Part shown: piece after piece, positions 5,692-62,337 of the stretch
How the letters are laid out: each line of letters begins with the position of its first letter
Numbering within the stretch: the stretch's first letter is position 1
Source of the DNA: Clostridia bacterium
GTDB taxonomy: Bacteria; Bacillota; Clostridia; Oscillospirales; Acutalibacteraceae
Direction: 5' to 3'
Assembly (NCBI GenBank): GCA_017516315.1
Contig: JAFXDE010000029.1
Span: forward strand, 1 to 63,996
Length of the DNA: 63,996 bases
Program-made: the position numbers and the translations under genes
Notes under the pieces: model-generated
The model's input: the letters and a program-made list of their open reading frames with translations, nothing else
Databases searched by the model: none
What the model was told of the DNA's origin: nothing

Positions 5692-5737
5692 AGGGGTAGG
5701 GGTGACGGTAATAATACAGAAAAAGGAAGTTAAAGAA

Positions 5738-7531: not shown

Positions 7532-7540
7532 AAAATATCA

Positions 7541-7569
7541 AGGGAACGGTGTGAGCCGTTCCCTTTTTT
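7541..7569 (+). terminator. Rho-independent terminator of the infB operon
   Basis: A 9-bp perfect stem (AGGGAACGG / CCGTTCCCT) with a 6-nt loop is followed by six T. It lies 10 nt after the stop of the zinc-ribbon gene. Confidence 0.93.
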
Positions 7570-7573
7570 GCAA

Positions 7574-7668
7574 CTTCTCAGTCACTTCGTGACAGCTCTC
7601 CTCTTAGGAAAACCTGAGTCACCTCGCCTGGAAGCAGAGGTGGCAACCGATAGGTTGACGGAGAGGTT
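7574..7668 (-). repeat. Dispersed intergenic palindromic repeat, copy A
   Basis: About 95 bp whose reverse complement matches nt 21379-21474 almost throughout: CTCTCCGTCAACCT at one end, AGGCGAGGT in the middle, AGGAGAGCTGTCACG and AGTGACTGAGA at the other end. It contains internal inverted repeats (CAGTCACTTCGTGACAG). It lies between two convergent terminators. A third partial copy is at 20508. Confidence 0.85.
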
Positions 7669-7675
7669 TAACCAC

Positions 7676-7705
7676 AAAAAAATTCCCCACCTTACGGTGA
7701 GGAAT
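7676..7705 (-). terminator. Terminator of the ylxM-ffh-rpsP-khpA operon
   Basis: Read on the minus strand: ATTCCTCACC, a 4-nt loop, GGTGGGGAAT (one mismatch) and then a run of T. It begins 11 nt after the khpA stop and closes the operon before the rimM-trmD-rplS genes that often follow in Firmicutes, which are absent here. Confidence 0.88.
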
Positions 7706-7716
7706 AATTTTTTCAA

Positions 7717-7950
7717 TCAGTCGATTTCTACTGAAATCTTGCTGTCGCTTCTGTTTGCAGTTGCACGCATTACAGTTCTGATAGCCTTTGCAATTCTGCC
7801 CTGCTTACCAATAACTCTACCCATATCGTCCTGAGCAACGTGAAGGTGGTAGACTACTACGCCTTCTTCGTTAATGTCGTCAACGTCAACAGTTACCTTT
7901 TCGGGCTCGTCAACCAAGCCCTGCGCAATAGATATAAGTAACTCTTTCAA
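7717..7950 (-). CDS. khpA: KH-domain RNA-binding protein KhpA (YlqC family)
   Basis: Single KH domain of 77 residues. The GxxG RNA-contact loop is seen in VIGKQGRIAKAIRTVMRA, preceded by the typical MKELLISIAQGLVDEPEKV start and followed by DSKISVEID. KhpA works with KhpB to bind small and messenger RNAs and influences cell elongation and division in streptococci and clostridia. It follows rpsP by 17 nt, the standard rpsP-khpA order. Confidence 0.93.
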   Translation of the reverse strand: MKELLISIAQGLVDEPEKVTVDVDDINEEGVVVYHLHVAQDDMGRVIGKQGRIAKAIRTVMRATANRSDSKISVEID

Positions 7951-7967
7951 AGTGGCGACCTCCGCAA

Positions 7968-8213
7968 TTATTTAATGATGTCGGACTTTTTAAGAAGAGC
8001 CTTAACAGTGTCTGTGGGCTGTGCGCCGTTAGCGATCCACTTCTGAGCCTTTTCAGCGTCGATTTTGATTTCAGCGGGTTCCTTCATGGGGTTGTAGTAA
8101 CCGATTTCCTCGATGAAACGACCGTCACGGGGATATCTTGAATCTGCTACTACTACACGGTAGAAAGGTGCCTTTTTTGCGCCCATACGGCGAAGTCTGA
8201 TTTTTACTGCCAT
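7968..8213 (-). CDS. rpsP: 30S ribosomal protein S16
   Basis: Ribosomal protein of 81 residues with the canonical start [20 protein letters not shown], followed by [22 protein letters not shown] and a C-terminal [12 protein letters not shown]. The start is the ATG at 8213, which has GGAGG about 7 nt upstream; an ATG five codons earlier would place that site inside the gene. It lies between ffh and khpA in the usual order. Confidence 0.96.
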
Positions 8214-8279: not shown

Positions 8280-9653
8280 TTACATCGGGAAACCGCCCAT
8301 GCCGCCATTCATACCGTTCATCATGCCGGGCATGTTTCTCATTCTTTTCTGCATTTTCTTTGTGTTTTTACCGCCGAACTGCTTGAACATTTTCTGCATC
8401 TGTCGGTACTGACTGAGAAGGCGGTTGACATCCTCGACCTGCATGCCGCAGCCTGCAGCGATACGGCGTTTTCTTGAGGGGTTGATGATGTCGGGCTTTG
8501 CTCTTTCCTGGGGTGTCATGGAAAGGATGATAGCCTGAACGCGGTCAAACTGTCTTTCGTCCACTTCTACCTCGTCGATTTTCTTACCGATACCGGGAAG
8601 CATTTTGAGCATATCCTTGATGGGACCCATCTTTCTTACCTGCTGAAGCTGGTCTAAAAGGTCGTTAAGGTCGAATTTGTTTTTACGAAGCTTTCTTTCG
8701 AGCTCTGCGGCTTTCTTTTCGTCGAGCTGCTGTTCGGCTCTTTCGATAAGAGAAAGCATATCACCCATACCGAGAATTCTCGAAGCCATTCTGTCGGGAT
8801 GGAAAACATCGAGGTTTTCGAGCTTTTCACCTGTACCTACGAACTTGATGGGCTTACCTGTAACGGCTCTGGCTGAGAGTGCCGCACCGCCTCGGGTATC
8901 ACCGTCGAGCTTGGTAAGGAGAAGACCGTCGATGCCGAGTGCCTCGTTGAAGGAGGTGGCGACATTGACTGCGTCCTGACCTGTCATAGAGTCGACGACG
9001 AGCATAATTTCGTGGGGATGAACCTCGCTTTTGATGTTTTTAAGCTCTTCCATAAGCTCCTCGTCCACGTGGAGACGGCCCGCTGTATCGAGAAATACAT
9101 AGTCATAGCCGTGGTCCTTAGCGTGAGCGACAGCCTTTCTTGCGATTTCCACAGGGTCAATCTGACCGAGCTGGAAAACGGGAACGCCTGCCTTCTCACC
9201 GACAACCTCTAACTGCTTGATAGCGGCGGGACGGTAAACGTCACAACCGACGAGAAGAGGTCTGTGGCCTTGATTTTTAAGCATAAGTGCGAGTTTCGCA
9301 CTGTGGGTGGTTTTACCTGAACCCTGTAAGCCGCACATCATAACGATCGTGGGAGGGTGGTTGGCTGTATTAAGTCTTGACTTGGTACCGCCCATGAGAT
9401 TGGTAAGCTCCTCATTGACGATTTTGATAACCATCTGTGAGGGGGTAAGACTTTCCATAACCTTTTCGCCTACGGCTCTTTCGGTTACGGTTTTGGTGAA
9501 GTCTTTGGCGACCTTGTAGTTAACGTCAGCCTCGAGGAGGGCTAAACGAACTTCTCTCATGGCTTCCTTTACGTCGCTTTCCGTAAGGGCGCCCTTACTT
9601 TTCAGCTTTTTAAAGGCGGCTTCCAGTCTGTCTGAAAGACCTTCGAATGCCAT
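8280..9653 (-). CDS. ffh: Signal recognition particle protein Ffh
   Basis: SRP54 GTPase of 457 residues that binds signal peptides and 4.5S/6S RNA and targets nascent membrane and secreted proteins. N domain at residues 1-85; G domain with GLQGSGKTTHSAKLA (P-loop), DTAGRLHVDEEL and TKLDGDTRGGAALS; then the M domain with the conserved LDQLQQVRKMGPIKDMLKMLPG linker region and a Met/Gly-rich tail (MNGMNGGMGGFPM). Full length. The gene follows ylxM by 43 nt. Confidence 0.97.
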   Translation of the reverse strand: MAFEGLSDRLEAAFKKLKSKGALTESDVKEAMREVRLALLEADVNYKVAKDFTKTVTERAVGEKVMESLTPSQMVIKIVNEELTNLMGGTKSRLNTANHPPTIVMMCGLQGSGKTTHSAKLALMLKNQGHRPLLVGCDVYRPAAIKQLEVVGEKAGVPVFQLGQIDPVEIARKAVAHAKDHGYDYVFLDTAGRLHVDEELMEELKNIKSEVHPHEIMLVVDSMTGQDAVNVATSFNEALGIDGLLLTKLDGDTRGGAALSARAVTGKPIKFVGTGEKLENLDVFHPDRMASRILGMGDMLSLIERAEQQLDEKKAAELERKLRKNKFDLNDLLDQLQQVRKMGPIKDMLKMLPGIGKKIDEVEVDERQFDRVQAIILSMTPQERAKPDIINPSRKRRIAAGCGMQVEDVNRLLSQYRQMQKMFKQFGGKNTKKMQKRMRNMPGMMNGMNGGMGGFPM

Positions 9654-46034: not shown

Positions 46035-46121
46035 GCCGGTGTGGCGGAATAGGCAGACGCAAGGGACTTAAAATCCCTCGGTGGCAACACCGTACCGGTT
46101 CAAGTCCGGTCACCGGCACCA
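46035..46121 (+). tRNA. tRNA-Leu(UAA)
   Basis: Acceptor arm GCCGGTG (46035-46041) pairs with CACCGGC (46111-46117), followed by A and an encoded CCA. Anticodon stem AGGGA / TCCCT around loop CTTAAAA gives anticodon TAA (46069-46071). A long variable arm (CGGTGGCAACACCG) marks a class II tRNA, and the T-loop GGTTCAAGTCC is standard. Strong promoter upstream and terminators downstream. The region to its right is AT-rich with a mobile element, but I found no duplicated tRNA 3' end to prove integration here. Confidence 0.97.
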
Positions 46122-46130
46122 AACCAGAAA

Positions 46131-46176
46131 AATCCGAACCAAATTTTCCAAATAGGAAAAGGGTTCGGATTTTTTG
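46131..46176 (+). terminator. tRNA-Leu terminator
   Basis: AATCCGAACC pairs with GGTTCGGATT; inner TTTTCC / GGAAAA; then six T. Confidence 0.9.
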
Positions 46177-46197
46177 TTTGGTTTTAATTACATACAT

Positions 46198-46229
46198 AAA
46201 AAGAGCTCCGCAAATACGGAGCTCTTTTT
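46198..46229. terminator. Second, bidirectional terminator
   Basis: A 13-bp perfect stem AAAAAGAGCTCCG / CGGAGCTCTTTTT with loop CAAATA. It also closes the minus-strand gene at 46256. Confidence 0.92.
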
Positions 46230-46255
46230 GGTTGTACGATAATATAATCAATGCA

Positions 46256-47005
46256 TTACATTCTGTTTATAGAATATCTTGATAAAAATGAAATGCTGTC
46301 TTTATATTTGTTATATTCTTGTTTTAGAACTTCACGAATTTCAGTTACATCTTCGCTGCAAAGTTTAACATAGTCATATACAGTATCTATATCACGATCG
46401 TAAATTCCGGATTCTTTCAAGATTCTCTTTATTGGCTCAGTTTTATAATACAAAAAATTTATATTGTTTAGAATATTATCAACGATATAAGATATGTATC
46501 TATGATCAACATTTCCTTGTTTCATAAAAAACAGAATTATATTAAGACATTTAGAAAAATCATACTCTATATAAGAGTTTTTTGTTTTCATAACATCAGA
46601 TATAACTTGATCTAGTGTTCTGTTGAATGTGCCGATATTCTTCAAGGTCTCGTCAACAATTTTTTTAATGCTTAAACGATTTTTGTTAATTATAAGATTT
46701 ATAATATTAGCTCTATAATTGAGATATCTATCATAGTCAATATTTTTATCATTAAATATGAGAAGCAATTGATAAACAAGATTTGCTCTAGATGTACGTT
46801 TTGGATTATTGATCAAAGCATCTATACTCTGTAGCAGTTTCTCTCTTCTACAAGCATAACTCAGATATAATTTCTTCACTTTATAAAAGGATGAGTAACC
46901 TATAACGCTAAGATACTCTTCTTGAGAACAGTTTAAAACTTTTAAAAAATTCAAATACTCTTCATCAGTGAACAGGTCCGTTAAAAACGGACATAGAAAA
47001 AACAC
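46256..47005 (-). CDS. AT-rich hypothetical protein abutting the IS element, N-terminus doubtful
   Basis: Protein of up to 249 residues; I recognise no family. It is Asn/Ile/Lys/Tyr-rich and appears helical (SRANLVYQLLLIFNDKNIDY, DYVKLCSEDVTEIREVLKQE). Base composition is far more AT-rich than the flanking native genes. The first ~12 codons lie inside the left end of the IS-like element, and there is no ribosome binding site before the ATG, so the true N-terminus may have been lost to the insertion. The sequence on the other side of the element does not continue the frame. Cargo of a foreign island next to tRNA-Leu is the simplest reading. Confidence 0.5.
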   Translation of the reverse strand: MFFLCPFLTDLFTDEEYLNFLKVLNCSQEEYLSVIGYSSFYKVKKLYLSYACRREKLLQSIDALINNPKRTSRANLVYQLLLIFNDKNIDYDRYLNYRANIINLIINKNRLSIKKIVDETLKNIGTFNRTLDQVISDVMKTKNSYIEYDFSKCLNIILFFMKQGNVDHRYISYIVDNILNNINFLYYKTEPIKRILKESGIYDRDIDTVYDYVKLCSEDVTEIREVLKQEYNKYKDSISFLSRYSINRM

Positions 47006-47051
47006 ACCTCCTATGGTAGAATTAAAGAAACTACCATAGGAGGATTTTTTT

Positions 47052-47402
47052 ATGCCAAGAAGTTACATACATATCAAACAATATGAGAAAGAAATATTAG
47101 AATTGAAACGACAAGGAATAACTTTGCGAGAAATCGGGAAAAGATATGGATTCACATATGAACAAGTCCATGACTTTATCAGTAGATATAATCGTAACCA
47201 AAGAAAAATTATGGCAGGAATACCGTTGAAACCAAAAGGAAGACCAAGAAAGAACAGAAACGAATTGCCACCATCAATTCAACAGTTAAGCAAATTTACA
47301 CAATTGCAGTATGAACTCGCAAGTAAAGAAAGACAAATAAAACGATTAGAAATGGAAAATGAATTGATACGGGATTTTCTCTCGCTCACAGAAAGGAAGT
47401 GA
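47052..47402 (+). CDS. IS3-type transposase OrfA
   Basis: Protein of 116 residues with an N-terminal helix-turn-helix (LKRQGITLREIGKRYGFTYE) for binding the IS ends and a C-terminal leucine-zipper-like helix (LASKERQIKRLEMENELIRD). It overlaps OrfB by 4 nt; in IS3 elements an OrfAB fusion is normally made by -1 frameshifting in such an overlap. ATG at 47052 in the left end of the element. Confidence 0.85.
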   Translation: MPRSYIHIKQYEKEILELKRQGITLREIGKRYGFTYEQVHDFISRYNRNQRKIMAGIPLKPKGRPRKNRNELPPSIQQLSKFTQLQYELASKERQIKRLEMENELIRDFLSLTERK

Positions 47403-48253
47403 GGATAAGTGTAAAATTTATGGTTATCTATCGTCACAAAGACAAGTATTCGATAAGTGAAATGTGCCGATTTTTTAATGTATCAAGAAGTGGTTACTAT
47501 GATTATGTTAAAAGAATGGATATTTCTGCGAAAGACTTACCGTTAGCTAAAAAGATAAAAGAATGTCAGGATAAGTGTGGTAGAACATACGGTTATCGTA
47601 GAGTACATATATGGCTTGAAAAGAATGGAATACATCGTAATCCTAAGACAATATTGAGGGTTATGCAGAAATACAATCTGTTATCAGTAATCAGAAGAAA
47701 GAAATATCGTAATTATGGAGATCACATTCATCGTTATCCAAATCTGCTAAACAGAGATTTTAAGGCTGACAGACCGAATCAAAAGTGGGTTACAGATATA
47801 TCATATATTAAGACACAACAAGGAACGCTTTATCTATCAGTAATCAGAGATTTGTATGATAATAGCATTGTTGCTTACAAAACCGGGACAGAACAAAACA
47901 TTAACCTTGTTTTGAGTACAATCAAATTAGCGAAAAGAAAATAGAAGGTCACCGCAGAGCTGCAACTCCACAGTGACCAAGGTTTTCAATATACATCACC
48001 AGCATATTTTAACCTGACAAAATCATACGGCATAACGCCCTCAATGTCAAGACGTGGGAACCCATATGATAATGCAATGGCAGAAAACTTTTTCTCAATT
48101 CTTAAAACAGAATGTATCTACAGAGCAAAGTTAAAAACTTATGAGGATGCTCGCATCCTCATAAGTGAATACATACACTTTTATAACAACGAAAGAATTC
48201 AATTAAAAACAAAACTGACTCCGCTTGAAAAACGAAGTCAGTATGTCGCTTAA
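47399..48253 (+). pseudogene. IS3-type transposase OrfB with in-frame amber stop
   Basis: DDE (rve) integrase domain. First Asp in WVTDISYIKTQQGTLYLSVI, second Asp in LHSDQGFQYTSPAYF, Glu in GNPYDNAMAENFFSILKTE, then the standard YNNERIQLKTKLTPLEKRSQ ending. The frame is interrupted by TAG at 47942-47944 between the first and second catalytic Asp (KRK-stop-KVTAELQ) and continues in the same frame to 48253. Restoring one codon gives a normal ~284-residue OrfB. The copy is therefore not autonomous unless the stop is suppressed. Confidence 0.85.
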
Positions 48254-49919: not shown

Positions 49920-50975
49920 TTATTCGGTGGGAAAGGAGACTTCAAAGACTGTTCCGTTTTCATCGGTGCTTTTTATTTTTATGTCACCGTTATGTAGCTC
50001 ACATATTCTTTTCGATATGGCGAGACCTATGCCGTAGCCGCTGCTTTTATGAGAGAGGTCACCCTGAAAGAATTTATCAAAGGCGTGCCGTGCTTCCTCC
50101 TCGCTCATTCCCTTGCCGCTGTCAGCAACTGTGACGGTTAAAAGATTGCGATGCTTAGTAATTCTGATTGAAATTTCTGAGCAGGGAGGTGAAAACTTGA
50201 CGGCATTATCTATGAGATTTATCCACAGCTGCTGTAAAAGCTCACTGTTGGCGCTGATGAAATGCTCATCACATTCGAAATTAACAGTTATGTTTTTCTC
50301 TGTCCACTTATGGGCAAGAAGAATGATAACCTGCCGTATCTGCTCTGTTATGTTGTATTCGTGCTTATCCGTAAGCAATGTCTGATTGTTGAGCTTTGTA
50401 AGATTGAGTACATTGGATGAAAGCTGAGACAGTCTTTCGCTTTCGCTGATAATGATGTCGAGGTATTCTTTTCTTTCCTGCTCGGTAAGCTCTGAGTCCT
50501 TGAGCATTTTTGCAAAGCCTGAAATAGAAATAATCGGAGTTTTGAATTCGTGGGAGAAATTATTGATAAAATCATTTCTCATCGCTTCCACATTCTGCAG
50601 CTCCTTAGACATAACATTCACTCGCTCAGCGACTCTGCGCACGGAGCGGATGCCGTTTTCCTTTACATTGACATTCAGCTCTCCCTCGGTGATTTTACCG
50701 AGAGCGAGATAAGAATTACGCAGAGGCAAAAGCACATAATTTCTGAAAACCACGGAGAGAAGCACACCGATAACGAGGCTTATCAGCATCAGGAGATAGG
50801 TTCCCGAGTGTCTTGGCAGCATCTCTATGTCGAGGAAGGGGGTACGGTTAATTGCCGTATAGATGAGAAAGAGTGCCGTGGAGGACACGGAGATAAGCGA
50901 AAAGACAATGACGGACATAATCAAAGCCAGCTTCACTCTTTCCTTAATCCTTTTGTATGATTTTTTCTTTTTCAT
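49920..50975 (-). CDS. Sensor histidine kinase (second two-component system)
   Basis: Protein of 351 residues with two transmembrane helices near 18-37 and 58-78, a short outer loop and a HAMP-like linker (LPLRNSYLALGKITEGELNV). The HisKA His is in FINNFSHEFKTPIISISGFA; the ATPase domain has DNAVKFSPPCSEI and GYGIGLAISKRICELHNGDI. The small sensor loop suggests sensing within or near the membrane. Its start overlaps the response-regulator stop as ATGA. Confidence 0.92.
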   Translation of the reverse strand: MKKKKSYKRIKERVKLALIMSVIVFSLISVSSTALFLIYTAINRTPFLDIEMLPRHSGTYLLMLISLVIGVLLSVVFRNYVLLPLRNSYLALGKITEGELNVNVKENGIRSVRRVAERVNVMSKELQNVEAMRNDFINNFSHEFKTPIISISGFAKMLKDSELTEQERKEYLDIIISESERLSQLSSNVLNLTKLNNQTLLTDKHEYNITEQIRQVIILLAHKWTEKNITVNFECDEHFISANSELLQQLWINLIDNAVKFSPPCSEISIRITKHRNLLTVTVADSGKGMSEEEARHAFDKFFQGDLSHKSSGYGIGLAISKRICELHNGDIKIKSTDENGTVFEVSFPTE

Positions 50976-51646
50976 TGGTTGATCACCGCTTTATAGCCGA
51001 TACCCTTGATGGCAATTATGGTAAATTCGGGAAAATCGCCGAAACGTTTTCTCAGACGGTTGATGTGTACATTCACCGTGGTATCTACGGAGGTGGAGTT
51101 CATACCCCATATTTCATCCATCAGCTGGAGACGGGTAAAGATTTTATCAGGGTAGGAGAGCAGCTTGAAAAGCAGATAAAATTCCTTTTTAGGCAAGGTC
51201 TGACTTACACCCTTTCTTGACACGGTGAGAGCATTATAGTCGAGGGTAACATCGCCTATCCTAAGCCTTTGCTCATTGGCTATGCTTGCTCTGCGAAGAA
51301 GTGCCTTAATCCTGTAAATGAGCTCCGTTTCGTCTACGGGCTTGGTGAGATAGTCGTCTGCACCTACTATGAAGCCCTTATATTTGTCCTCGGGAAGCTG
51401 TTTGGCGGTAATCATAAGAATAGGAATATTCAGACCGTTTGACCTGATTATTTCTGTCAGCTCGTAGCCGTTCATTTCGGGCATCATAACATCCAGCAGT
51501 ACAAGGTCAATATAAACCTCATCGAGCTTTTTCAGTGCATCGACACCGTTGCTTGAAAGCTCGACCTCATATCCCGCATTGGTCAGAATAACCTGCATAA
51601 GCCTGGCGGAGTTTTTGTCGTCTTCTACGACCAGAATCTTAAACAT
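50972..51646 (-). CDS. OmpR/PhoB family response regulator (second two-component system)
   Basis: Protein of 224 residues. Receiver: FKILVVEDDKNSARLMQVIL, phosphoacceptor Asp in DLVLLDVMMPEMNGYEL, Lys in DDYLTKPVDETELIYRIKAL. Winged helix: LPKKEFYLLFKLLSYPDKIF and a HINRLRKRFGDFPEFTIIAIKGIGY ending (in part RKRFGDFPEFTIIAIKGIGY). The start at 51646 has AAGGAGAC 8 nt upstream; an ATG 17 codons earlier lacks a site. Divergent from the Lgt-like gene; direct repeats lie in the gap. Confidence 0.94.
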   Translation of the reverse strand: MFKILVVEDDKNSARLMQVILTNAGYEVELSSNGVDALKKLDEVYIDLVLLDVMMPEMNGYELTEIIRSNGLNIPILMITAKQLPEDKYKGFIVGADDYLTKPVDETELIYRIKALLRRASIANEQRLRIGDVTLDYNALTVSRKGVSQTLPKKEFYLLFKLLSYPDKIFTRLQLMDEIWGMNSTSVDTTVNVHINRLRKRFGDFPEFTIIAIKGIGYKAVINQ

Positions 51647-51712
51647 ATAAATTGTCTCCTTTCTGTAGGAAAGACAGAGTAATTTCTCAATCAGCATTTT
51701 ACCTGTTCAGAA

Positions 51713-51911: not shown

Positions 51912-52742
51912 ATGTTTGAAGGAAGTAAATACGCATACTACGGTATGTATTTAGTGGGTTTTGCGATAATGATGCTCGTTAATCTTAAAACCTATAAAAG
52001 ATATGAGCTGACGAAAAAGACAGCGGTAATTTTTACCCTTATAACTTATGTTGCCGGTGTGTACGGTGCATCAATGATGGGTAATATGTACAGTTCCGCA
52101 ATATTAAAATATGGCGGAACAAATTCAAGCGTTGCTATTTTTGGTGCTGTCGTTTTCACACCGATTATTATGACGGCGGTTTCCTTGCTTGCAAACAAGC
52201 CCTGGCGAAAGGTTATGGATTTACTCGCACCGGGAATATTCATCATTCTCACCTGTGCGAAATTCGGTTGCTTCATGGCAGGTTGTTGTGTAGGTAGAGA
52301 ATGCAGTTTCGGTATATATAATCCTGAATACGAAGCGACTCTTTTTCCCTCTCAGCTTTTTGAAAGCATAACTATGTGCTTTGTGATAGCTTTCTGCTTC
52401 TGGTTCGGCTTCAGAAGCGGCAAGTGTAAATCAGGCGCTCTTTATCCCGTGACAGCGGCGGTTTACTCCGTAACGAGATTCTGCTGGGAGTTTATGAGGT
52501 ATTATCCGAACGATGATATCAGACATATTATGTTCGGCTTAACCTTCTGGCAGTTCTGGTGTCTGGTAACTATAGTAATTTCCGCCGTATGGCTCTTACT
52601 GCTCAGATCTCATAAGCTTATTATAATAGAAAAGAAATATAATGATTTCTATCTCGACGTTAAAACGAAGATTTTAAACAGAACGAAGAAAGACATCGTT
52701 CATCATAACAGCAACAAAAAGAAATATCAGAAGAAAAAATAA
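51912..52742 (+). CDS. Prolipoprotein diacylglyceryl transferase (Lgt)-like membrane protein
   Basis: Integral membrane protein of 276 residues with about seven hydrophobic helices. It has partial Lgt signature: CAKFGCFMAGCCVGRECSFG (like the RIGNFxNxExxGR region), LFPSQLFES (like HPTQLYE) and RFCWEFMRYYP. The early His-Gly-Gly region of true Lgt is not clear, and a highly basic C-terminal tail is present (NRTKKDIVHHNSNKKKYQKK). ATG follows AAGGAGAAAA. It may be an Lgt paralogue with a changed role. The next gene is the giant secreted protein 158 nt downstream. Confidence 0.75.
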   Translation: MFEGSKYAYYGMYLVGFAIMMLVNLKTYKRYELTKKTAVIFTLITYVAGVYGASMMGNMYSSAILKYGGTNSSVAIFGAVVFTPIIMTAVSLLANKPWRKVMDLLAPGIFIILTCAKFGCFMAGCCVGRECSFGIYNPEYEATLFPSQLFESITMCFVIAFCFWFGFRSGKCKSGALYPVTAAVYSVTRFCWEFMRYYPNDDIRHIMFGLTFWQFWCLVTIVISAVWLLLLRSHKLIIIEKKYNDFYLDVKTKILNRTKKDIVHHNSNKKKYQKKK

Positions 52743-52818: not shown

Positions 52819-52839
52819 TTACTCATTCTAAATGAGTAA
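52819..52839. promoter_or_regulatory. Operator-like inverted repeat 1 before the giant gene
   Basis: TTACTCATT, CTA, AATGAGTAA: a perfect 21-bp dyad. It shares the core TACTCATT-N3-AATGAGTA with a second dyad 28 bp downstream. Confidence 0.75.
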
Positions 52840-52847
52840 CAGACGAA

Positions 52848-52866
52848 TACTCATTTATAATGAGTA
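52848..52866. promoter_or_regulatory. Operator-like inverted repeat 2 before the giant gene
   Basis: TACTCATT, TAT, AATGAGTA: a perfect 19-bp dyad with the same arms as repeat 1 but a different spacer. It ends 33 nt before the giant gene start, in the probable leader. Confidence 0.75.
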
Positions 52867-52899
52867 AAAAAACGAAAAAATTTTACAGGAGGAAAAAAC

Positions 52900-55800
52900 A
52901 TGTTAGTAACAAAAAGAGAAGTCAGACAGGCTTCTAAAAAGCTCTTAAGTGTGTTACTTGCGGTCGTTATGATTATGACCAGCATGAGTGTGTGCTTCGG
53001 CTCTGTAGCCTTCGCTGCAGGAACAGATGTAGATGTAACTGCACTCGCTAACGCACTTAAGTTTGACAGCGTTAAGAATGCTACCTTCTCAGGCTCAGCT
53101 AACGACTACACTGTCAGCGATCCTGACGGCAAGGTTCTCGCCGCCGTGGAGGCTTATTTCGCAGCAGTAGACGCTATGGCGAATAAGAACCCTGCTATTC
53201 GGACACCCTCTTCGGGCTCTTCTGATATCGCTCAGACGGGTGAATCATCAGACAAGACCTACAGAACCATCAATCATCTGAATGCCAGAGTGAAAACTCT
53301 GCTCAGTGATAAGATGGGCAGTGACTACACAGACTATAATGTTGATGCGTTTATCACCGGCCTTTTAGCAGGCTCCACAGTAAGCGAAGGCACAACAATG
53401 GTTGACGGCTCAGCAAGCACATCAAACAACACTACTGTTCCCGGCACTCCTCTCGCTGCAGCTCCCGAAGTAAAGCTTACAGTTATGATGGAAAGTGCTG
53501 TCACAGGTCACACTCTTGACAGTCTTCCTGACAGCGTAGTTACATCTAAGACCTTTACTGTAAAGCATGCAAATACCAACTACGACTATAAGTATGACTT
53601 TACAGACGGCGGTCGTTGTGATGATGACAAATATGAGCACGACTATTGGTTCTATTACAACTACAGCTCATATTCAAAAGAAGACGGTGCATCTAAGTCC
53701 ACACAGACCATCAAAAATACACAGTCTACTCTGGAGGCTTATGTTGATTACTTCTCAATGGATATGGATGAGCTTTATGCTGTTGATGCCGCTACTCTTG
53801 ACACAGTAAGCACTGCTGTGAAAAACGCTAAAGCAAATGTCGTAACTGGCTTCGGTGCAGGTGTTTACACTCACTTCTTCTCAGCCTATAATGTTGAGAA
53901 GCTTACAGGTGACATAGTTATCGCTAAAGAGCTTCAGGTTCTCGCTCCCAAGCTTCTCAAAGCCTATGAGGATATGGAAAAGGGCTACGGTGATATCATT
54001 ACCGATAAAGCCGCTCTTAACACTCTCGCACAGACTATGAAGACAGCTATGGATGCTTATGATGCAGCCTCTGCAGCTGCCAAGACCTATGTTACAGAGG
54101 CAGGCTTCATCCGCGCAGATGTAGAAACCTTCTACAGCAAGGTTCTCCGTGAAATCGAGCTTATCGAGCTTCGTGAGCTTATCGAAGAAATCACACTTGG
54201 CATTTTACCCTTTGCCGCTTATACCGTTGACAGTATCGCTGACGGCTCCGTAACATCAGCCGATATCGGTGCGGCACTTACCGCTATCGCCGGATATGAG
54301 GGCCGCTTGGATAAGTACAATGCAGCTGATGTTGAAGCTGTAGCAGGTGCTGATTTCCGTACCGGTATCACTAATCTCAAACAGCAGCTTTCATATCTTA
54401 AAACTGTAGCAGGCTATGAGGATGATTTCAGTGCAGAGTATGAAAAATTCGCTTCCGAAATCTTCTCCGTAACCGATGCAAACGGTGACATCGATACTCT
54501 CCTTTCTGCTCTTAAGAGCTATGACGGCTGGTACACAGGCCTTAAGGCTCTTATCGCTGAAATGAAGTCCGCTCTCGGTGAAGAAGTAGCCGAAAAGCTC
54601 TTCGATGACCTTAATAATGTAATGACAGAGCGTATGGATGATGCTTATGTAGCACTCAACGCTTTACTCGAGGCACAGATTGACTATGCTTATGATCTCT
54701 TTAAAGCTTATATAAGCACTTACGGTGAAATGGTTAACATGCTTACCGTTTCTGAGTATAAAGCTATGCAGGCCTCTATCGGTCTCATCAATGCTGGTGC
54801 CTACAGCTTCCTCAACGGTACAGATCACTTCGAGCTTTCCGCTGAAGCAGTAGCCAAATACGAAGAAATGCAGAAGGACTTCCCCGAGTATGAGGAGTTC
54901 CTTAACAGCAAGGGCTTTGCTACATATCAGCAGACATTTATGCCTGATCTGGAGAGACCTGACACAGAAAAAGACATCGCCCGTGAAAATGAAGACGGTG
55001 TTTATAAGACATCTGACGAAGATATCGAGGCTATCATCAGCCTTCTCGATGCTCTCCTTCAGAACGATGCAGTAAAGGATCTTCTCGGCAGCTTTATTAA
55101 TAAGGACGAAGAAGGTAATCCCACAGGCGAGCCCTTCGACCTGGCAACTCTTGTTTCAGGCCTTATTGAAGGCATGGTATTCTCTGACTCTCTTATCAAT
55201 ACAGTAATTCAGTTTGTCTATCCCGCAGTAGCCAATATCTTTACTGAGGTATGGATGGGTATCGATCCCTGGATAGATGATCCTGCGATGGCTGTTATGG
55301 GACAGACTGTATCAGTTAAAGCTGACCTCTATCTTAATACTGTAGAAGAAGCTACAGCAGGTCTCGGCTTACCCATCTTTCCCGCTGATCTCGCAGCCGC
55401 TATCAGAAGCAGCTATTCACAGTTCAGTGCTGTGGCCGATGTTCTCGATGACGCTACCACCAAGGCCTATATTGCTAAGGCTCCTGACGGAAGCTGGGAT
55501 GAAAGCACACGCAAATCTCCTTGGGATGATGCTGTTCTCTATAGTGAAAATGTAAATGAAGAAACAGGCGAAACCACTAAGACTCTTAACCTTGACTGGG
55601 GTATCGATGAGCTCGAAGGCGAGGCTAAGCGTGAACGCTTCCTTCAGGCTGTTCAGGCGGCTCTCTGCGGTCTCGAGCCTATCCTTCTCGCTCTCCTCTG
55701 TAATACTCCTATGGAAAGATTCAACGCTTTCATCGGTAGCGGTTACGGTAAAGACGGTCTGAACGGCTTTAATGCCGGTGATGTTCTCTTCTGGAAAAAC

Positions 55801-58800
55801 GTTACACTCAGCGACATAGAGCTTGATATTCATACTATCGATCTCAGACTTAATGCTACGGCAAACGACGGCTACAATAATGTAATCGCTCCTCTCTTTG
55901 AGCTGCTCGGCGTTACTGCTCCAGACGGCAGAAGCTTCACATCCTCAAGAGATGTTATCGAAAAGGGCCTTCTTCAGCCTCTCGATGCAGTTATTGCCAA
56001 GCTGGCCGCAAACCCTGTAGCAACTCTTCTGGAAATTCTTCCCAACCTTGCTTATGCTGTTGAAGCAGATATGCTTCTTCCCAAGCTTAATTATCTCGCT
56101 ACAAACATTTCCTATTCAGCAGGTGCCACTATCAATGCTGACCTGAATGACTGTACTTGCAGTGTCGGTCTTATAGGAATGCTCCTTCCTTATCTTGACA
56201 GTGTTGTTACAGATATGACAGGTCTGACATGTAGTGGAGGTGTTATCCAGAATGTCCGTTCTGACGATGTTATGACTGATAACCTTCCTGTTGAAATCGC
56301 AGGCATCATCAATATCGAGGACCTTCTCGGCGATGTAGACCTTACCTCCTTCGCAGGTATCTGGGATATGCTTGCAGGCTCCGTTGACCTTCTCGCAGGT
56401 ATGGAGGCTCCCAACGCAGGCATCATCGCAACTCTCGGTGCACTCGGTACTGTTGATACCAAGAGATCACAGGCAGACTACGAGCTTCCCGCAGCCGGTA
56501 AGGCCTACCACATCGAAGCCAATAAGGCTGATGTTCTCGTATATCTGCTTAAGTATGTTCTCGGCAGCGGTCTTATCGACGGCCTCGTAGAGAATCCCGA
56601 AGGCATCGTTGCTGACCTTCTCACTGCTCTCAGTGAAAAGCCCGACACAGTTCTCGCTGCAGTAGTCGAGCTTCTCAATCAGAAGGAATACGACACTCTC
56701 AGAGAATTTGAATGGTTTAACGGTTTCGTTAACGGTGAATCCGTAGTAGGTAACTCCGCTAACGCTATTTACCTCAACCCCGAAAATGACTGGACAGAGG
56801 CAAAGGCAGAGTATCTGTACAAAAACCTTGATGCACTCGTTAGCGCTATCCTTACTATGGCAGGCGCAGATTTCGACCTCGGTGCTACCATCGACGGTGC
56901 TATCAGCGGTCTTCTCAGTGACAAGACACTCACTGCTCTTGCTAAGCTTCTCGGAAGCATCGCTGACATTAACAGCCTTATCGCAGGCGAAGATGCTGCA
57001 GAGCCTCTTCCTGTTGATGTTGCAGCTCTCCTGACAGAATTCCTCGGCATTGATTTGAGCGTTTATGCTGACTATGCTGACATCGCAGAAGACGAAATCA
57101 TCGACTTCGGCGTAGATGCAGGCACAACCACCTTTGCAGCCGCTCTCGCAGATATGCTTGAGCCTCTCTCCGCAGTTCTCGACTTCATCCTCGCAGGTGA
57201 AAACCTCGTTATCACCGTTGAAGACGAAACAGTAGAGCTTGTAGGCTATGACGGCTATAACAATGCTATCATTCCTCTCCTCGAAGCATTAGACTGTGAT
57301 ATTGCAGTAAATCCCGAAAACGCACTCGAAGCTATTCTCACAGCACTTATTGGCAAGATTGAAGCTATCACAAAGTCAGAAACACCCATCAAGGATATTA
57401 TCGACCTTCTTCCCGGTGTATTCTACTTCATCGCATCCAAGGGCCTTTCAGTTTCCGTAAGAAACCTTCTCCAGCCCGTATATGTAATCCTTGATACCGT
57501 AAGACCTATTTACGACCTTGACCTCAATGCTACGATTAACGGTCTTCTTCCCGAAGACTTCGGCATTATGCTCAATATTGACGACATCGGTATCGAATTT
57601 ATCTTCGATCTTCTTAAGAAGCTCGTTCCCGACCTTGACCTTTCAGCACTTAAGGATGTTATCTATGACATCTGTAATGAAATCGGTGTAGAATACGAAT
57701 CAAAATCTACTCTCCAGGATGACTGGAAGAAGGGTGCATACAGTGAAAGCTTCAGCGCCGCTGACCTTCTCACAGTAGTTCTCTCCTTCGTTCTTGAATG
57801 GGCAACTATCGAAGACAATGCCAAGGCTCTCGATGAAATGCTCGGTACAGACGGCATCATCGCCGCTATCGGCACAGTATTTGAGTCAGTTGAGCTCGAA
57901 TACGGCACACCTGACTGGATGTACTGGTTTGAAACAGAGGAGGAGTTCAATTCCTATGTAGACGGAAACACTACTCTTCCCGATACTCTCCTTGCACTCG
58001 AATATCCCAACGACTGGTCAGAGGAAGCAGCACAGTATATCGCTGACAACCTTGGCTCACTCGTAGATATGGTACTCGGCCTTATCGAAATCGACGGTGT
58101 GAAGTATGCTTCACTCGCTGAGCTCGTAAATGCCAAGCTCGATGTATTCAATGCTGAAACAATCAATAAGATTATCGCTCTTATCACAGATATCCTCGCT
58201 GAGGTAGACGATAACCTTCTTTCCGTTGGTTATCTCCTTGATGTAGACCTTGTAGGTCTTAAGAACTACACCTGCACAGCAGAAGTAAATGATGTTAAGT
58301 CTTTCGCTGCTGAGCTCGCTTCTATTCTTACCACCTATGCAGGCGGTCTTGTTGACTGGCTCTTCTTCGGTGATGATTTCCGCTTCGCCAAGAAGTCCGA
58401 CAGCACAGACACCATCGTTATCAACGGCGGTCTCGGTTATGAAAAGGGTCTTGCACTTGTTCTCGAGGCTCTCGGCTGTGACCTTCCCGAAAAGGCAACT
58501 GTTGAAAGCGTTCTCCTTGCACTTGCAAACAGAGTTGACGCTATCCTCGGTGACAATATGGTAAATGAAGTTATCGATCTTCTTCCCAACCTCATTTACT
58601 TCCTCAATGCAAACGGTGCATCCGTAGCAGTAAACAACCTTCTCGCTCCCGTTTATGCACTTCTCGACAAGATTAACGGTCTCGGCATTCTTGAGAATCC
58701 CATCGATCTTGCAGGTCTCCTCGGCTTTGATCTCAAGTATCTTTCACTTGAAGACATCCTTACTCTCGTTAAGGAGAAGACAGGTCTCGACCTTGCAGCA

Positions 58801-61800
58801 GTAGAGGAAATCCTCGTAGATCTCTGCCTCGGTAAGATCGAAAAGAAGACATACACCTACAAGATGGTTGTAGACAGAAAGGATACAGTAACACTTATCC
58901 TTACCACAGCACTTATGCTTGTCAAGGACGAAGCCTTTGCAGCTAAGCTCGAAGAAATGCTCGGTACAGATATGATTTCTGCTATCAAGACAGTATTCGA
59001 ATCCGCTCCCGTGACCTACAGCACTCCCGACTGGTATGCTCTCGACGGAAACGATGTGGATTACGATAACGCTACAGTAGGCGTAATCAAGTATGCTATC
59101 GAGTATCCCAATAACTGGACAGAGGAAAGCGCTAAGTATGTAGCAGAGCTTCTGGAATCTGATGAATTTGACAAGCTTGTAGCAGGTCTCATCGACAGCA
59201 GCTATGCTTCTCTCGGTGATCTTCTCGCAGATAAGGTTGACATTTACACACCCGCACTCCTCGAAACAATTCAGAAGGCTCTCGGTGACCTCATCGGCGG
59301 TCTCGATGAAAGCCTTAAGGACCTCGTAAATGTCGGTCTCGGCGCAGCTGACGCACTTCTCGGTGCAGATGTTCAGGGCCTCCTTGACTATGATGTATCC
59401 GGTGTTAAGGATAAGGAAACCTTCGTAGCAGCCTTCACAGGTATGCTTATGGAAGTAGAAGGACTCGTTGACTGGCTCCTTCTCGGTCAGAGCTATGAGC
59501 TCTTTGTTGATGATAAGAACGATAACGGCGAATACGATAAGGGCGAACAGATTATCACTCTTAACGGCGGCCACGGCTATGCCGAAGGTCTCGCACTCGT
59601 TCTCGAAGCACTCGGTGCAGAAAATCTTCCCGATGTTTATGATATGGAGGAAATCGACACAGAAGAAGTAGTAAGCGCAGTTCTTACCGCTGCCTTCGAC
59701 AGAGTGGATGCTATCCTCGCTGATCCCGTTGCAGAGGTATTTGAGCTTCTTCCCAATGTTCTCTACTTCATCAATGCTAACGGCCTCACCGTAGCAGTAG
59801 ACAACCTCCTCGGTGCTGTAAATGCACTTCTTATCAAGCTTGAAGGCCTCGGTGTTGAGCTTGACATCGCATCACTTGTTGACTTCAGTGAAATCCTCGG
59901 TGTTGAAACAGAGCTTGCTCTCGATAACATCACTATGGAAGCTGTAATCGCACTCGTTGCAGAGCTTACAGGTCTCAACCTCGATAAGATTGCAGATGTA
60001 CTCGTTGGCTTCGCACTCGGCAGAGTAGCCGCTTACGACTCAGTAAGCAGTGCAGACATCACAGCTAAGATGTACTATCACGACGACTTCGCTAAGTATG
60101 ATATGATTACCGTACTCGCTACAGTAGCTATCATCACACTTACAGACGAAGCAAATGCTGATAAGGTCAAGGAGCTTCTCGGCGAAGATATTTATCAGCT
60201 CGTTCTCAACCTCATCAATATGGGCGAGGTTCCCGTTCAGGAATTCGGCTGGCTCTTTACAGATAAGGCTGATACTGATGAAGTATTCTCAGTAATCGGT
60301 GCGGAAGGAATCTTCGAAAACTTCACCTACGGTGAAATCTACACAGAAGAGATGGGACAGTATATCGCTGACAATTTCGGTGAATTCGTAAATAACGTAA
60401 TCTACCTTCTCGGTATTGACATTAACGGTGACGGACAGACTGAAGCCGGTCTCACAGACCTTATTAACGGCTTGCTCGGCGGCTCACTTTACAACAGCGC
60501 AAATGTTACAGCTATCCGCGATGCTCTCGCAGGTGTGCTCGAAAATATCACCAAGCTCGAGGTAAACGGTGCGGTAGTAGGCGGCATCATCGCTGATGTG
60601 CTCAAGACAGCAGGTATCGCTGACATCAAGGCTGTAGCCGATGTCAGAGTAGATGAATTCGAAAACGACAGAGAACAGTTCGTTGCAGCTCTCTGCGATG
60701 TACTCGAGCCTCTCTACGGCATTCTTAGGTATGTGCTTGCTGATGAAGACATCTCCTTCTTTGTAAATATGGAAAAGACAGATGCCATCACTCTTAGAGG
60801 TGCAGAGGGCTACGCTTACGGTATCATTCCTCTCCTCGAGACTCTCGGCTGTGAAAACATTCTCACTCCCGCTGAATACTATGCAGCAGTAGAGGCTGAC
60901 GGAGGTGTGCTTCTTACATCTATCCTTGATCCTCTTCTTGACAGAGTAGATGCTATCCTTGCAGGCGATACCGCACAGGAAATCCTCAATATGCTCACCA
61001 ACCTTATCTACTTCGTAAACTCCAACGGTGTTGACACAGTAGTTAAGAATACACTTAATGCAGTCTACGGACTTCTTGCAGCCATTGAGCCCATCGCAAA
61101 GATTGATCTTTATGAGCTCATCGGTATCGACCTTGCAGAAATCGACTTTGAATGGATTATGGATAAGCTCTTTGACGCTCTGGCAAAAGCAGGCTATGAG
61201 TTCACGATGGAGGACATCGACTATGTAGCGTCTCTTACCGTCGGTAAGCTCGAATCCTTCACATCAGCCAACGGCAAAACAGCCTACAGAATGGTTTATG
61301 CTGAAGGTGAGGAGATCGGTGACAAGAAGGAGCTTGTGACAGTAGTTCTCAGCCTTATTGTAACCTTCCTTACACATGAGCAGAACCGCAAGGTAGTTCT
61401 TGATTTCCTCAGAGATGAGCTTTGTATGTCCGATGAGGCAAGACCTTATGTACAGGCCGTATTTGACTTCATTGCTGACTGCATAAATAATACTCAGCTC
61501 GGAACCGAGTCTGTTCTGGCAGCGCTCTATTATGTATACTTCGGCGTTGATGTCGGTGTAGATAATACTGCCGCCGAAAAGAAAAACCTCGATCAGCTCT
61601 GGAGAGATGCACTCGCTGACCTCAGAAAGGAAAATAACGCAGCGGCTGATTTGATTGAAGAAATTCTCGGATGGGATATTTTTGAAGATCTTATCGATAC
61701 TGACGGTCTCGCACCTAACGGCTTCATCAGATTCTTCCAGAAGATTGTCGACATTTTCAGATCCATCATCGAATGGTTTAAAAACTTATTTAACAGAGCT

Positions 61801-61818
61801 GAACCCGCAACGGTTTAA
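52900..61818 (+). CDS. Giant secreted repeat protein (2972 residues)
   Basis: I recognise no known family. Signal peptide at residues ~1-41 (LLSVLLAVVMIMTSMSVCFG, then SVAFAAG). Residues ~42-900 are unique and mainly helical. From ~900 the protein has five divergent repeats of ~390-455 residues. Each has a GYxxxxxPLLEALGC-like segment (NDGYNNVIAPLFELLG, DGYNNAIIPLLEALDC, GLGYEKGLALVLEALGC) followed by an LLPNLxYFxNxNG segment near residues 1044, 1500, 1891, 2280 and 2696, and a YPNDWSEEAAQYIADNL-type segment in four of them. It is acidic and rich in Leu, Ala and Asp, likely an alpha-helical solenoid. The C-terminus is an aromatic amphipathic helix (FFQKIVDIFRSIIEWFKNLF). AGGAGG precedes the ATG. 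Codon use resembles infB, suggesting high expression. Confidence 0.85.
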   Translation: MLVTKREVRQASKKLLSVLLAVVMIMTSMSVCFGSVAFAAGTDVDVTALANALKFDSVKNATFSGSANDYTVSDPDGKVLAAVEAYFAAVDAMANKNPAIRTPSSGSSDIAQTGESSDKTYRTINHLNARVKTLLSDKMGSDYTDYNVDAFITGLLAGSTVSEGTTMVDGSASTSNNTTVPGTPLAAAPEVKLTVMMESAVTGHTLDSLPDSVVTSKTFTVKHANTNYDYKYDFTDGGRCDDDKYEHDYWFYYNYSSYSKEDGASKSTQTIKNTQSTLEAYVDYFSMDMDELYAVDAATLDTVSTAVKNAKANVVTGFGAGVYTHFFSAYNVEKLTGDIVIAKELQVLAPKLLKAYEDMEKGYGDIITDKAALNTLAQTMKTAMDAYDAASAAAKTYVTEAGFIRADVETFYSKVLREIELIELRELIEEITLGILPFAAYTVDSIADGSVTSADIGAALTAIAGYEGRLDKYNAADVEAVAGADFRTGITNLKQQLSYLKTVAGYEDDFSAEYEKFASEIFSVTDANGDIDTLLSALKSYDGWYTGLKALIAEMKSALGEEVAEKLFDDLNNVMTERMDDAYVALNALLEAQIDYAYDLFKAYISTYGEMVNMLTVSEYKAMQASIGLINAGAYSFLNGTDHFELSAEAVAKYEEMQKDFPEYEEFLNSKGFATYQQTFMPDLERPDTEKDIARENEDGVYKTSDEDIEAIISLLDALLQNDAVKDLLGSFINKDEEGNPTGEPFDLATLVSGLIEGMVFSDSLINTVIQFVYPAVANIFTEVWMGIDPWIDDPAMAVMGQTVSVKADLYLNTVEEATAGLGLPIFPADLAAAIRSSYSQFSAVADVLDDATTKAYIAKAPDGSWDESTRKSPWDDAVLYSENVNEETGETTKTLNLDWGIDELEGEAKRERFLQAVQAALCGLEPILLALLCNTPMERFNAFIGSGYGKDGLNGFNAGDVLFWKNVTLSDIELDIHTIDLRLNATANDGYNNVIAPLFELLGVTAPDGRSFTSSRDVIEKGLLQPLDAVIAKLAANPVATLLEILPNLAYAVEADMLLPKLNYLATNISYSAGATINADLNDCTCSVGLIGMLLPYLDSVVTDMTGLTCSGGVIQNVRSDDVMTDNLPVEIAGIINIEDLLGDVDLTSFAGIWDMLAGSVDLLAGMEAPNAGIIATLGALGTVDTKRSQADYELPAAGKAYHIEANKADVLVYLLKYVLGSGLIDGLVENPEGIVADLLTALSEKPDTVLAAVVELLNQKEYDTLREFEWFNGFVNGESVVGNSANAIYLNPENDWTEAKAEYLYKNLDALVSAILTMAGADFDLGATIDGAISGLLSDKTLTALAKLLGSIADINSLIAGEDAAEPLPVDVAALLTEFLGIDLSVYADYADIAEDEIIDFGVDAGTTTFAAALADMLEPLSAVLDFILAGENLVITVEDETVELVGYDGYNNAIIPLLEALDCDIAVNPENALEAILTALIGKIEAITKSETPIKDIIDLLPGVFYFIASKGLSVSVRNLLQPVYVILDTVRPIYDLDLNATINGLLPEDFGIMLNIDDIGIEFIFDLLKKLVPDLDLSALKDVIYDICNEIGVEYESKSTLQDDWKKGAYSESFSAADLLTVVLSFVLEWATIEDNAKALDEMLGTDGIIAAIGTVFESVELEYGTPDWMYWFETEEEFNSYVDGNTTLPDTLLALEYPNDWSEEAAQYIADNLGSLVDMVLGLIEIDGVKYASLAELVNAKLDVFNAETINKIIALITDILAEVDDNLLSVGYLLDVDLVGLKNYTCTAEVNDVKSFAAELASILTTYAGGLVDWLFFGDDFRFAKKSDSTDTIVINGGLGYEKGLALVLEALGCDLPEKATVESVLLALANRVDAILGDNMVNEVIDLLPNLIYFLNANGASVAVNNLLAPVYALLDKINGLGILENPIDLAGLLGFDLKYLSLEDILTLVKEKTGLDLAAVEEILVDLCLGKIEKKTYTYKMVVDRKDTVTLILTTALMLVKDEAFAAKLEEMLGTDMISAIKTVFESAPVTYSTPDWYALDGNDVDYDNATVGVIKYAIEYPNNWTEESAKYVAELLESDEFDKLVAGLIDSSYASLGDLLADKVDIYTPALLETIQKALGDLIGGLDESLKDLVNVGLGAADALLGADVQGLLDYDVSGVKDKETFVAAFTGMLMEVEGLVDWLLLGQSYELFVDDKNDNGEYDKGEQIITLNGGHGYAEGLALVLEALGAENLPDVYDMEEIDTEEVVSAVLTAAFDRVDAILADPVAEVFELLPNVLYFINANGLTVAVDNLLGAVNALLIKLEGLGVELDIASLVDFSEILGVETELALDNITMEAVIALVAELTGLNLDKIADVLVGFALGRVAAYDSVSSADITAKMYYHDDFAKYDMITVLATVAIITLTDEANADKVKELLGEDIYQLVLNLINMGEVPVQEFGWLFTDKADTDEVFSVIGAEGIFENFTYGEIYTEEMGQYIADNFGEFVNNVIYLLGIDINGDGQTEAGLTDLINGLLGGSLYNSANVTAIRDALAGVLENITKLEVNGAVVGGIIADVLKTAGIADIKAVADVRVDEFENDREQFVAALCDVLEPLYGILRYVLADEDISFFVNMEKTDAITLRGAEGYAYGIIPLLETLGCENILTPAEYYAAVEADGGVLLTSILDPLLDRVDAILAGDTAQEILNMLTNLIYFVNSNGVDTVVKNTLNAVYGLLAAIEPIAKIDLYELIGIDLAEIDFEWIMDKLFDALAKAGYEFTMEDIDYVASLTVGKLESFTSANGKTAYRMVYAEGEEIGDKKELVTVVLSLIVTFLTHEQNRKVVLDFLRDELCMSDEARPYVQAVFDFIADCINNTQLGTESVLAALYYVYFGVDVGVDNTAAEKKNLDQLWRDALADLRKENNAAADLIEEILGWDIFEDLIDTDGLAPNGFIRFFQKIVDIFRSIIEWFKNLFNRAEPATV

Positions 61819-61971: not shown

Positions 61972-62040
61972 GAAAAGGTGATAATACTGTTCTTTCACAA
62001 CAGTACAGGCATCGATATTGATAAAACGTAGACAGTGTAT

Positions 62041-62337
62041 ATGGAAAAGGAAGGGAAGGTCGGAATAGTTTCTAAAGCAAAAAACATACTTACGACCGCA
62101 AAGGAATATTGGACGGAGCCACCGAAGGGTAATTATATTCTCTATAAAGAGGTGGCGACTCTCAGCGGTGCAGGCTTCGGCGTCTACTGGATGACGCTTC
62201 TTTCGGGTACCATCAGTCTTGATGCATCGAGCTTTCTGGTTGGTGCCAGTATAGGTCTCAAGTCCACCGATCTGCAGATTATGGCTATTATAGCAAATAT
62301 CATAGGTATACCTATCGGTATTTTCCGTGCTTGTTAA
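62041..62337 (+). pseudogene. N-terminal fragment of a GPH/MelB-type MFS transporter
   Basis: About 98 residues. The start (IVSKAKNILTTAKEYWTEPP, KGNYILYKEVATLSGAGFGV, then two hydrophobic helices ending IANIIGIPIGIFRA) matches the first 100 residues of glycoside-pentoside-hexuronide:cation symporters in Clostridia, which are normally ~450 residues. The frame then meets TAA at 62335-62337, and no later frame restores transporter sequence. The ATG at 62041 has no good ribosome binding site, although a promoter lies upstream. Truncation by insertion or deletion at about 62330 is likely; composition changes to AT-rich after this point. Confidence 0.7.

Follow-up and report, generated by a model that had tools for sequence, protein, structure and literature searches.

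What is the very large protein encoded near the end of this contig, and how might it be held at the cell? The window analysed here is the whole stretch of 63,996 nucleotides of contig JAFXDE010000029.1 (assembly GCA_017516315.1, family Acutalibacteraceae). The open reading frame (ORF) in question runs uninterrupted from exactly 52900 to 61818 on the forward strand, as do all parts of it described below, with an AGGAGG ribosome-binding site seven bases 5' of its ATG. Its product of 2972 residues is called P0001; L-numbers denote fetched relative loci or proteins and G-numbers genomes. P0001 begins with a predicted signal peptide (residues 1–40, 52900..53019; cleavage near AFAA by eye), with hydropathy windows of 1.62 and 1.95 inside residues 11–40. 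Four orthologues of similar length, with 94.4, 73.5, 63.0 and 50.5% identity over aligned positions (the first lacks its N-terminus at a contig end), come from gut metagenome genomes of goat rectum, goat caecum, water buffalo rectum and roe deer rectum. The frame, its ribosome-binding site, the hydrophobic N-terminus and the orthologues agree with the initial annotation of this DNA, which had described a secreted protein of 2972 residues. P0001 is probably an abundant, Sec-exported surface protein of an uncultured genus of gut Clostridia (g1), and we moderately favour its being a coat or adhesin of helical repeats, tethered at the C-terminus and carrying an exchangeable outer half.

The C-terminal half of P0001 is built of repeats. 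Fragments of the protein delimited at a GY motif were compared by phmmer, which gave E-values of 5.6e-43 for residues 1419–1815 against 1816–2193, 3.9e-37 for 1816–2193 against 2194–2606 and 6.7e-23 for 2194–2606 against 2607–2972. A unit profile (A3) made from 20 units of five orthologues, with the P0001 units B to E among those built in, scored each of these four at 467–519 bits and placed them at residues 1262–1698 (B, 56683..57993), 1694–2069 (C, 57979..59106), 2063–2467 (D, 59086..60300) and 2440–2899 (E, 60217..61596). The repeats are far above chance, and units B to E are homologous. Five units had been proposed; four of them are clear, and the fifth, unit A (residues 690–1261, limits by eye, 54967..56682), is degenerate and weakly supported. 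In P0001 it is detected over about 80 residues (981–1063, phmmer domain E-values 2e-5 to 0.0035; 988–1057 with the unit profile, 23 bits), and the higher pairwise score of fragment 961–1418 stems from its end, which is part of unit B. We count it as a fifth unit because the same place in two relatives matches over much of the profile (L055, residues 770–1145, 44 bits; L043, 870–1170, 38 bits). The stretch of about 900 unique N-terminal residues given by the initial annotation shrinks to a non-repeat region of about 650 (residues 41–690).

We modelled one unit (a construct of residues 1660–2075 around unit C) and, with AlphaFold2 (AF2), the N-terminal part (residues 41–690). The unit construct was predicted to be mostly helical with two short beta hairpins, at a middling predicted local distance difference test score (pLDDT 68.9). 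In the model of residues 41–690 helices predominated and strands were few (predicted template modelling score, pTM, 0.48). It suggests a head with beta strands (residues 41–267, 53020..53700), followed by long helical bundles that are spectrin-like in arrangement only (residues 269–670, 53704..54909). The helical character ascribed earlier to the units would thus hold for most of a unit, with the hairpins, and the strands of the head, as departures from it. Searches of Pfam, NCBIfam, PHROGs and PDB gave nothing significant for P0001, and a fold search with the predicted models returned no confident match; the absence of a recognised family was as the initial annotation had it, and the strong match to a characterised family that it named as a refuting outcome did not appear.

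The N-terminal half differs between relatives in two ways. The head differs strongly in sequence identity between classes of orthologues, and a block of residues 761–1200 (55180..56499) has a history of its own. P0001 and L006 were 73–84% identical over residues 41–760, 31–47% over 761–1200 and 77–88% over 1201–2500, while the corresponding values for P0001 and L039 were 13–35%, 48–66% and 54–70%. A tree of residues 761–1200 from 12 orthologues grouped P0001, L005 and L039 (support 100/99), and a tree of residues 1201–2900 with 11 rows grouped P0001, L005 and L006 (support 100/99). Forcing P0001, L005 and L039 together in 1201–2900 cost 88 log-likelihood units (approximately unbiased test, p-AU 2.4e-80) and forcing P0001, L005, L006 and L060 together in 761–1200 cost 230 (p-AU 1.2e-4), p-values that are formal only because the groups were named after the trees had been seen. 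Synonymous differences between P0001 and L005 were also raised in the block, less so in residues 1301–1500, which points to imported DNA. We rejected hypervariability by point changes in favour of allele exchange: L006, L007, L059 and L060 are alike in the block (58–95% identity in the pairs compared). By these sequence comparisons, the orthologues of P0001 are mosaics in which residues 761–1200 have been exchanged between lineages.

At its other end P0001 carries the motif DGLAPNG and an amphipathic helix, FIRFFQKIVDIFRSIIEWFKNLF (residues 2935–2972, 61702..61815), a putative membrane tether. The helix, noted already in the initial annotation, has a hydrophobic moment of 0.72, which none of 5000 shuffles reached, and it was matched at E 9.3e-22 by a profile (A4; 47 positions, 16 family C-termini) that includes the P0001 sequence itself. 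At E<=0.01 this profile matched 33 of 34 g1 genomes and one of 25 others, with family proteins among the matches, and in a sample of the order it matched 4 of 394 genomes at E<=0.001, the window's own included. We then scanned 25 fetched loci, nearly all picked for helix matches, and found 23 ORFs outside the family at E<=1. The helix lay 0–8 residues before the stop in 20 of them, several of which look like orthologues of one protein of 1,180–1,270 residues; 16 of the 20 had a strong N-terminal hydrophobic stretch, and the other four comprised two that were 5'-cut, one of 41 residues and one with a doubtful start. In the remaining three (L105, L119 and L121) the helix formed the N-terminus. 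A Pfam scan of nine carriers identified both N-terminal cases included (L105 and L121) as BD-FAE esterases; for the seven with the helix at the C-terminus, the families found were Big_5, DUF4430 and an alpha/beta hydrolase, and four had none. A helix of the same type was also seen at the N-terminus of L040:4914-5837. In three relatives a transmembrane-like end (by eye) takes the place of the helix: the 879-residue L038 of the same genome, and L052 and L053 of G035. The helix appears portable across secreted proteins of the genus, and we read it best as a membrane tether, since it occurs at either terminus of unrelated proteins and takes the place of the membrane anchors seen in relatives. Together with the signal peptide, its recurrence on further secreted g1 proteins suggests a surface location for P0001, in line with the initial annotation.

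High expression, the other property proposed at the outset, agrees with the codon use. With infB as the reference, the gene that the initial annotation had used for comparison (its GHVDHGKT motif was seen), P0001 had a codon adaptation index (CAI) of 0.712, the highest of 31 ORFs compared; the next was 0.657 (ORF 8280-9653), and the gene upstream of P0001, described below, had 0.44. infB was preferred to ribosomal genes because L2 was not found in the incomplete genome. The isoleucine codon ATA makes up 3% in P0001 vs 35% in the background. Such codon use is that of a highly expressed gene, and P0001 is probably abundant. Upstream of the ribosome-binding site, the leader (52819..52867) holds two 17-bp palindromes of the form ACTCATN5ATGAGT, with starts 28 bp apart (two matches in the window vs 0.01 expected by chance), which fold together as one long hairpin (z -3.4). 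The hairpin is kept in L006 and L060, and the palindromes occur in L006, L060 and L068. A conserved small leader peptide was considered and dropped, as its frame is not kept in L060 (by eye).

The family is narrow in range and wide in size. Matches to P0001 were found in 35 of 59 genomes, its own included: all 34 of genus g1 and, from a second genus of its taxonomic family, G035; the 24 others had none. In samples of the order and the class, where the window's own genome was the only one of g1 among the rows listed, the unit profile matched 5 of 394 genomes and 2 of 391, respectively. Beyond the window's own, the order sample gave three genomes of g33, a genus within the taxonomic family of g1, and one from a different family (E 1.8e-8), and the class sample gave one match (E 5e-4) interrupted by stops. 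Between 2 and 17 unit stretches were detected in ORFs of 879 to 11,320 residues. Above 15 bits, we counted two in the 879-residue paralogue of the same genome, three to six in uncut proteins of about 2,460–3,530 residues and, in the three giants read, 13 to 17 (the 5' end is cut in two of them). At least 11 of the 34 g1 genomes (G002, G003, G005, G007, G009, G011, G014, G019, G026, G030 and G033) have family frames of more than 8,000 residues, and the longest among the matches listed, 11,580 residues, occupies about 35 kb of a 2.2-Mb genome; the window's own genome (82% complete) yielded no giant family frame. The two-unit paralogue (L038:8121-10760) adjoins an ORF (5370-8117) that is ABC transporter-like by eye. 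Giant family genes are adjoined by secreted proteins of more than 2,000 residues (L050:8030-15235 and L047:1752-16850), one of them with List_Bact_rpt repeats and a cysteine-rich end.

The reading that we favour would combine these features as follows. The C-terminal helix would sit in the membrane's outer face, tethering the chain, units B to E would form a stalk whose reach is set by the number of units (2 to about 17 detected in the family), and the N-terminal head and unit A would point outward and be swapped between lineages by recombination, as one would expect if they were in contact with ligands, phages or other cells. Several points weigh against this arrangement. The stalk is a guess, and the unit model was middling and found no confident fold match; the solenoid of the initial annotation is one possible arrangement of the units, and the contact with predators or hosts that it proposed is one possible function. 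Mosaicism of residues 761–1200 can be neutral, and N-terminal variability fits several functions. At E<=0.01 the helix profile matched nothing but P0001 in the window's own genome; five further matches had E-values of 0.04–0.86, although four of these do end at a C-terminus. The 23 non-family ORFs with the helix count as fewer than 23 independent cases, because the loci were chosen for helix matches and many are orthologues. The genome has one sortase, and other members of the family may be anchored otherwise: L044, L055 and L088, which have fewer units (4, 4 and 3 detected; L088 is 3'-cut), have cysteine contexts that would fit a lipobox (LISC, VISC and IISC). The helix could also be a processing signal, as weighed below. 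Location, tethering, abundance and function are deduced from sequence, and whether P0001 is an adhesin or a coat is a choice between such deductions.

The gene upstream of P0001 bears on several alternatives. At 51912..52742 on the forward strand, across a 158-bp gap, lies a gene for a divergent membrane protein of 276 residues of the prolipoprotein diacylglyceryl transferase (LGT) family (PF01790, E 1.2e-22), a possible partner of P0001. It has PF01790 in common with LGT, but scores far under the NCBIfam equivalog cut-offs, and the housekeeping motif GRWGNYANQE aligns with AKFGCFMAGCC, so that the housekeeping active-site motif is absent from it. Close LGT-like proteins share AKFGCFxxGCC at this place and distant ones vary; a housekeeping LGT lies elsewhere in the genome (G000:C51). 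Beyond the LGT-like gene, and divergently oriented, are a response regulator (50972..51697) and a histidine kinase (49920..50975), both on the reverse strand, with a similar arrangement in L040 and L068. L068, a contig end of G013, carries an LGT-like gene, the leader palindromes and the two-component system, and the G013 orthologue starts at another contig end; the two are probably the same arrangement as at the P0001 locus, broken by assembly. Of the divergent LGT hits in g1, 12 of 30 (counted by hand, leaving out two G013 pieces that resemble a split housekeeping copy) lay no more than about 1.1 kb from a family gene. Conversely, an LGT-like neighbour was seen for 10 of 44 family ORF pieces read and for 10 of the 31 whose 5' end was intact and for which 1 kb or more of upstream sequence had been fetched (L080, one piece of a broken gene, is not counted), fractions that are biased upward because L059-L063 were fetched for LGT hits. 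The other 21 of the 31, including the full orthologues L007, L008 and L041, had no such neighbour. A role of the adjacent LGT-like protein with P0001 is possible. One LGT-like gene was seen close to a different large secreted protein, L073, with an end that appears amphipathic by eye, and other divergent LGT-like genes (L064, L067, L071, L074 and L076) adjoin large ORFs that are nonribosomal peptide synthetase-like by eye and share the ending SHYFQ. A 100-aa ORF of the window (62035-62337) looks, when compared by eye, like the first part of a 709-aa ORF in L076 and is perhaps a truncated copy. A possible mobile-element remnant lies in the window at 46035-47944, where a tRNA-Leu precedes an ORF that combines HTH_21 with a partial integrase core (181 aa).

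Two better-known modes of attachment were considered and rejected. The LGT-like neighbour prompted a lipoprotein reading; a lipobox rule governs the residues before the invariant cysteine of a lipoprotein, and the context in P0001 is MSVC, with valine before the cysteine. That cysteine is absent in L040, in spite of its two LGT-like neighbours, and in L043. Firmicutes surface proteins anchored by sortase or by SLH or CWB2 domains likewise combine a signal peptide, repeats and a C-terminal anchoring region, but P0001 has no LPXTG-like motif and no transmembrane-like window at its C-terminus, so we rejected it as a sortase substrate, and Pfam and NCBIfam gave no SLH or CWB2 match in it at E<=1.

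In CTERM/exosortase-type systems a C-terminal signal is processed by a dedicated membrane enzyme, and the DGxAxNG motif with its helix might similarly be recognized by such an enzyme, perhaps the LGT-like neighbour. The conservation of the motif before the helix within the family, the 12 of 30 divergent LGT-like genes near family genes and the one near L073 speak for this; nevertheless 21 of 31 family genes have no such neighbour, the helix carriers outside the family show no motif in the ends seen, and the same helix stands at the N-terminus of esterases, for which a physical tether fits better. We therefore regard a processing signal as unlikely. We give the same low standing to a true surface layer (S-layer), in which P0001 would build a two-dimensional lattice and be attached through its C-terminal helix in the manner of PS2 of Corynebacterium glutamicum. 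The codon use and the acidic pI of 4.05 would suit it, and PS2 offers a precedent for C-terminal membrane anchoring: in the part of the report consulted, it is a hexameric protein of 55 kDa with a C-terminal transmembrane helix in the mycomembrane (PMC12337289). On that description both are alpha-helical secreted surface proteins with a C-terminal hydrophobic helix (predicted in P0001), but the PS2 anchor lies in an outer mycomembrane, P0001 has 2972 residues and an amphipathic helix, and no PDB chain matches it significantly by sequence. Moreover, family members of very different unit number coexist in the genus, and a lattice subunit of 2972 residues would be very large by S-layer standards.

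The composition of the units raises another alternative, that they are extracellular lipid-binding modules working with the LGT-like protein. Units B to E have a grand average of hydropathicity (GRAVY) of 0.27–0.37 vs at most -0.01 in 18 other window ORFs compared (non-LGT), yet each has a net charge of -37 to -61 and no transmembrane-like window, and an LGT-like gene is adjacent. Many family proteins, however, are near GRAVY 0, the LGT-like adjacency is not general, and large helical domains can have a hydrophobic interior without a ligand; we consider lipid binding very improbable. Only a little less doubtful is a released giant protein, a matrix or aggregation factor whose helix would serve self-association. 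Giant proteins of Apilactobacillus kunkeei were recovered from the cell-free supernatant (PMC12863079, in the sections consulted), but the transmembrane-like ends of paralogues and the occurrence of the helix on unrelated proteins, esterases among them, argue against release of P0001.

The A. kunkeei proteins are also the nearest parallel in layout. The same sections describe Giant1-3 as long secreted chains with a Sec signal peptide, imperfect alpha-helical repeats (13 of 366 aa in Giant2), intragenic recombination, beta-solenoid N-terminal domains and DUF5776 C-terminal domains (PMC12863079). Compared by description, P0001 shares the Sec signal peptide, the very long chain, the large helical repeats and the recombination, and as far as that account goes its layout is of a known kind; it differs in having no DUF5776 match at E<=1 and in ending in an amphipathic helix. 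In a literature search that was not exhaustive and was judged by titles and the starts of abstracts, we found no description of the family, of a portable helix as a surface tag or of the linkage to LGT-like genes.

For the many gut Clostridia that are uncultured, annotation of the surface proteins is poor. Going beyond the tethered coat or adhesin that we favour, we suggest tentatively, as a minority possibility, that the genus may have a surface display of its own, in which a portable in-plane helix would replace transmembrane and cell-wall anchors and hold a set of secreted proteins, giants with frames of up to 11,580 residues among them, an LGT-family enzyme, re-purposed and altered in its active site, would be dedicated to assembling or lipid-modifying some of them, and outer modules would be shuffled between species. 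A lineage-restricted family with no reference match, together with a portable helix, offers a handle on protein display in these bacteria and on the parts that face phages, host or neighbours.

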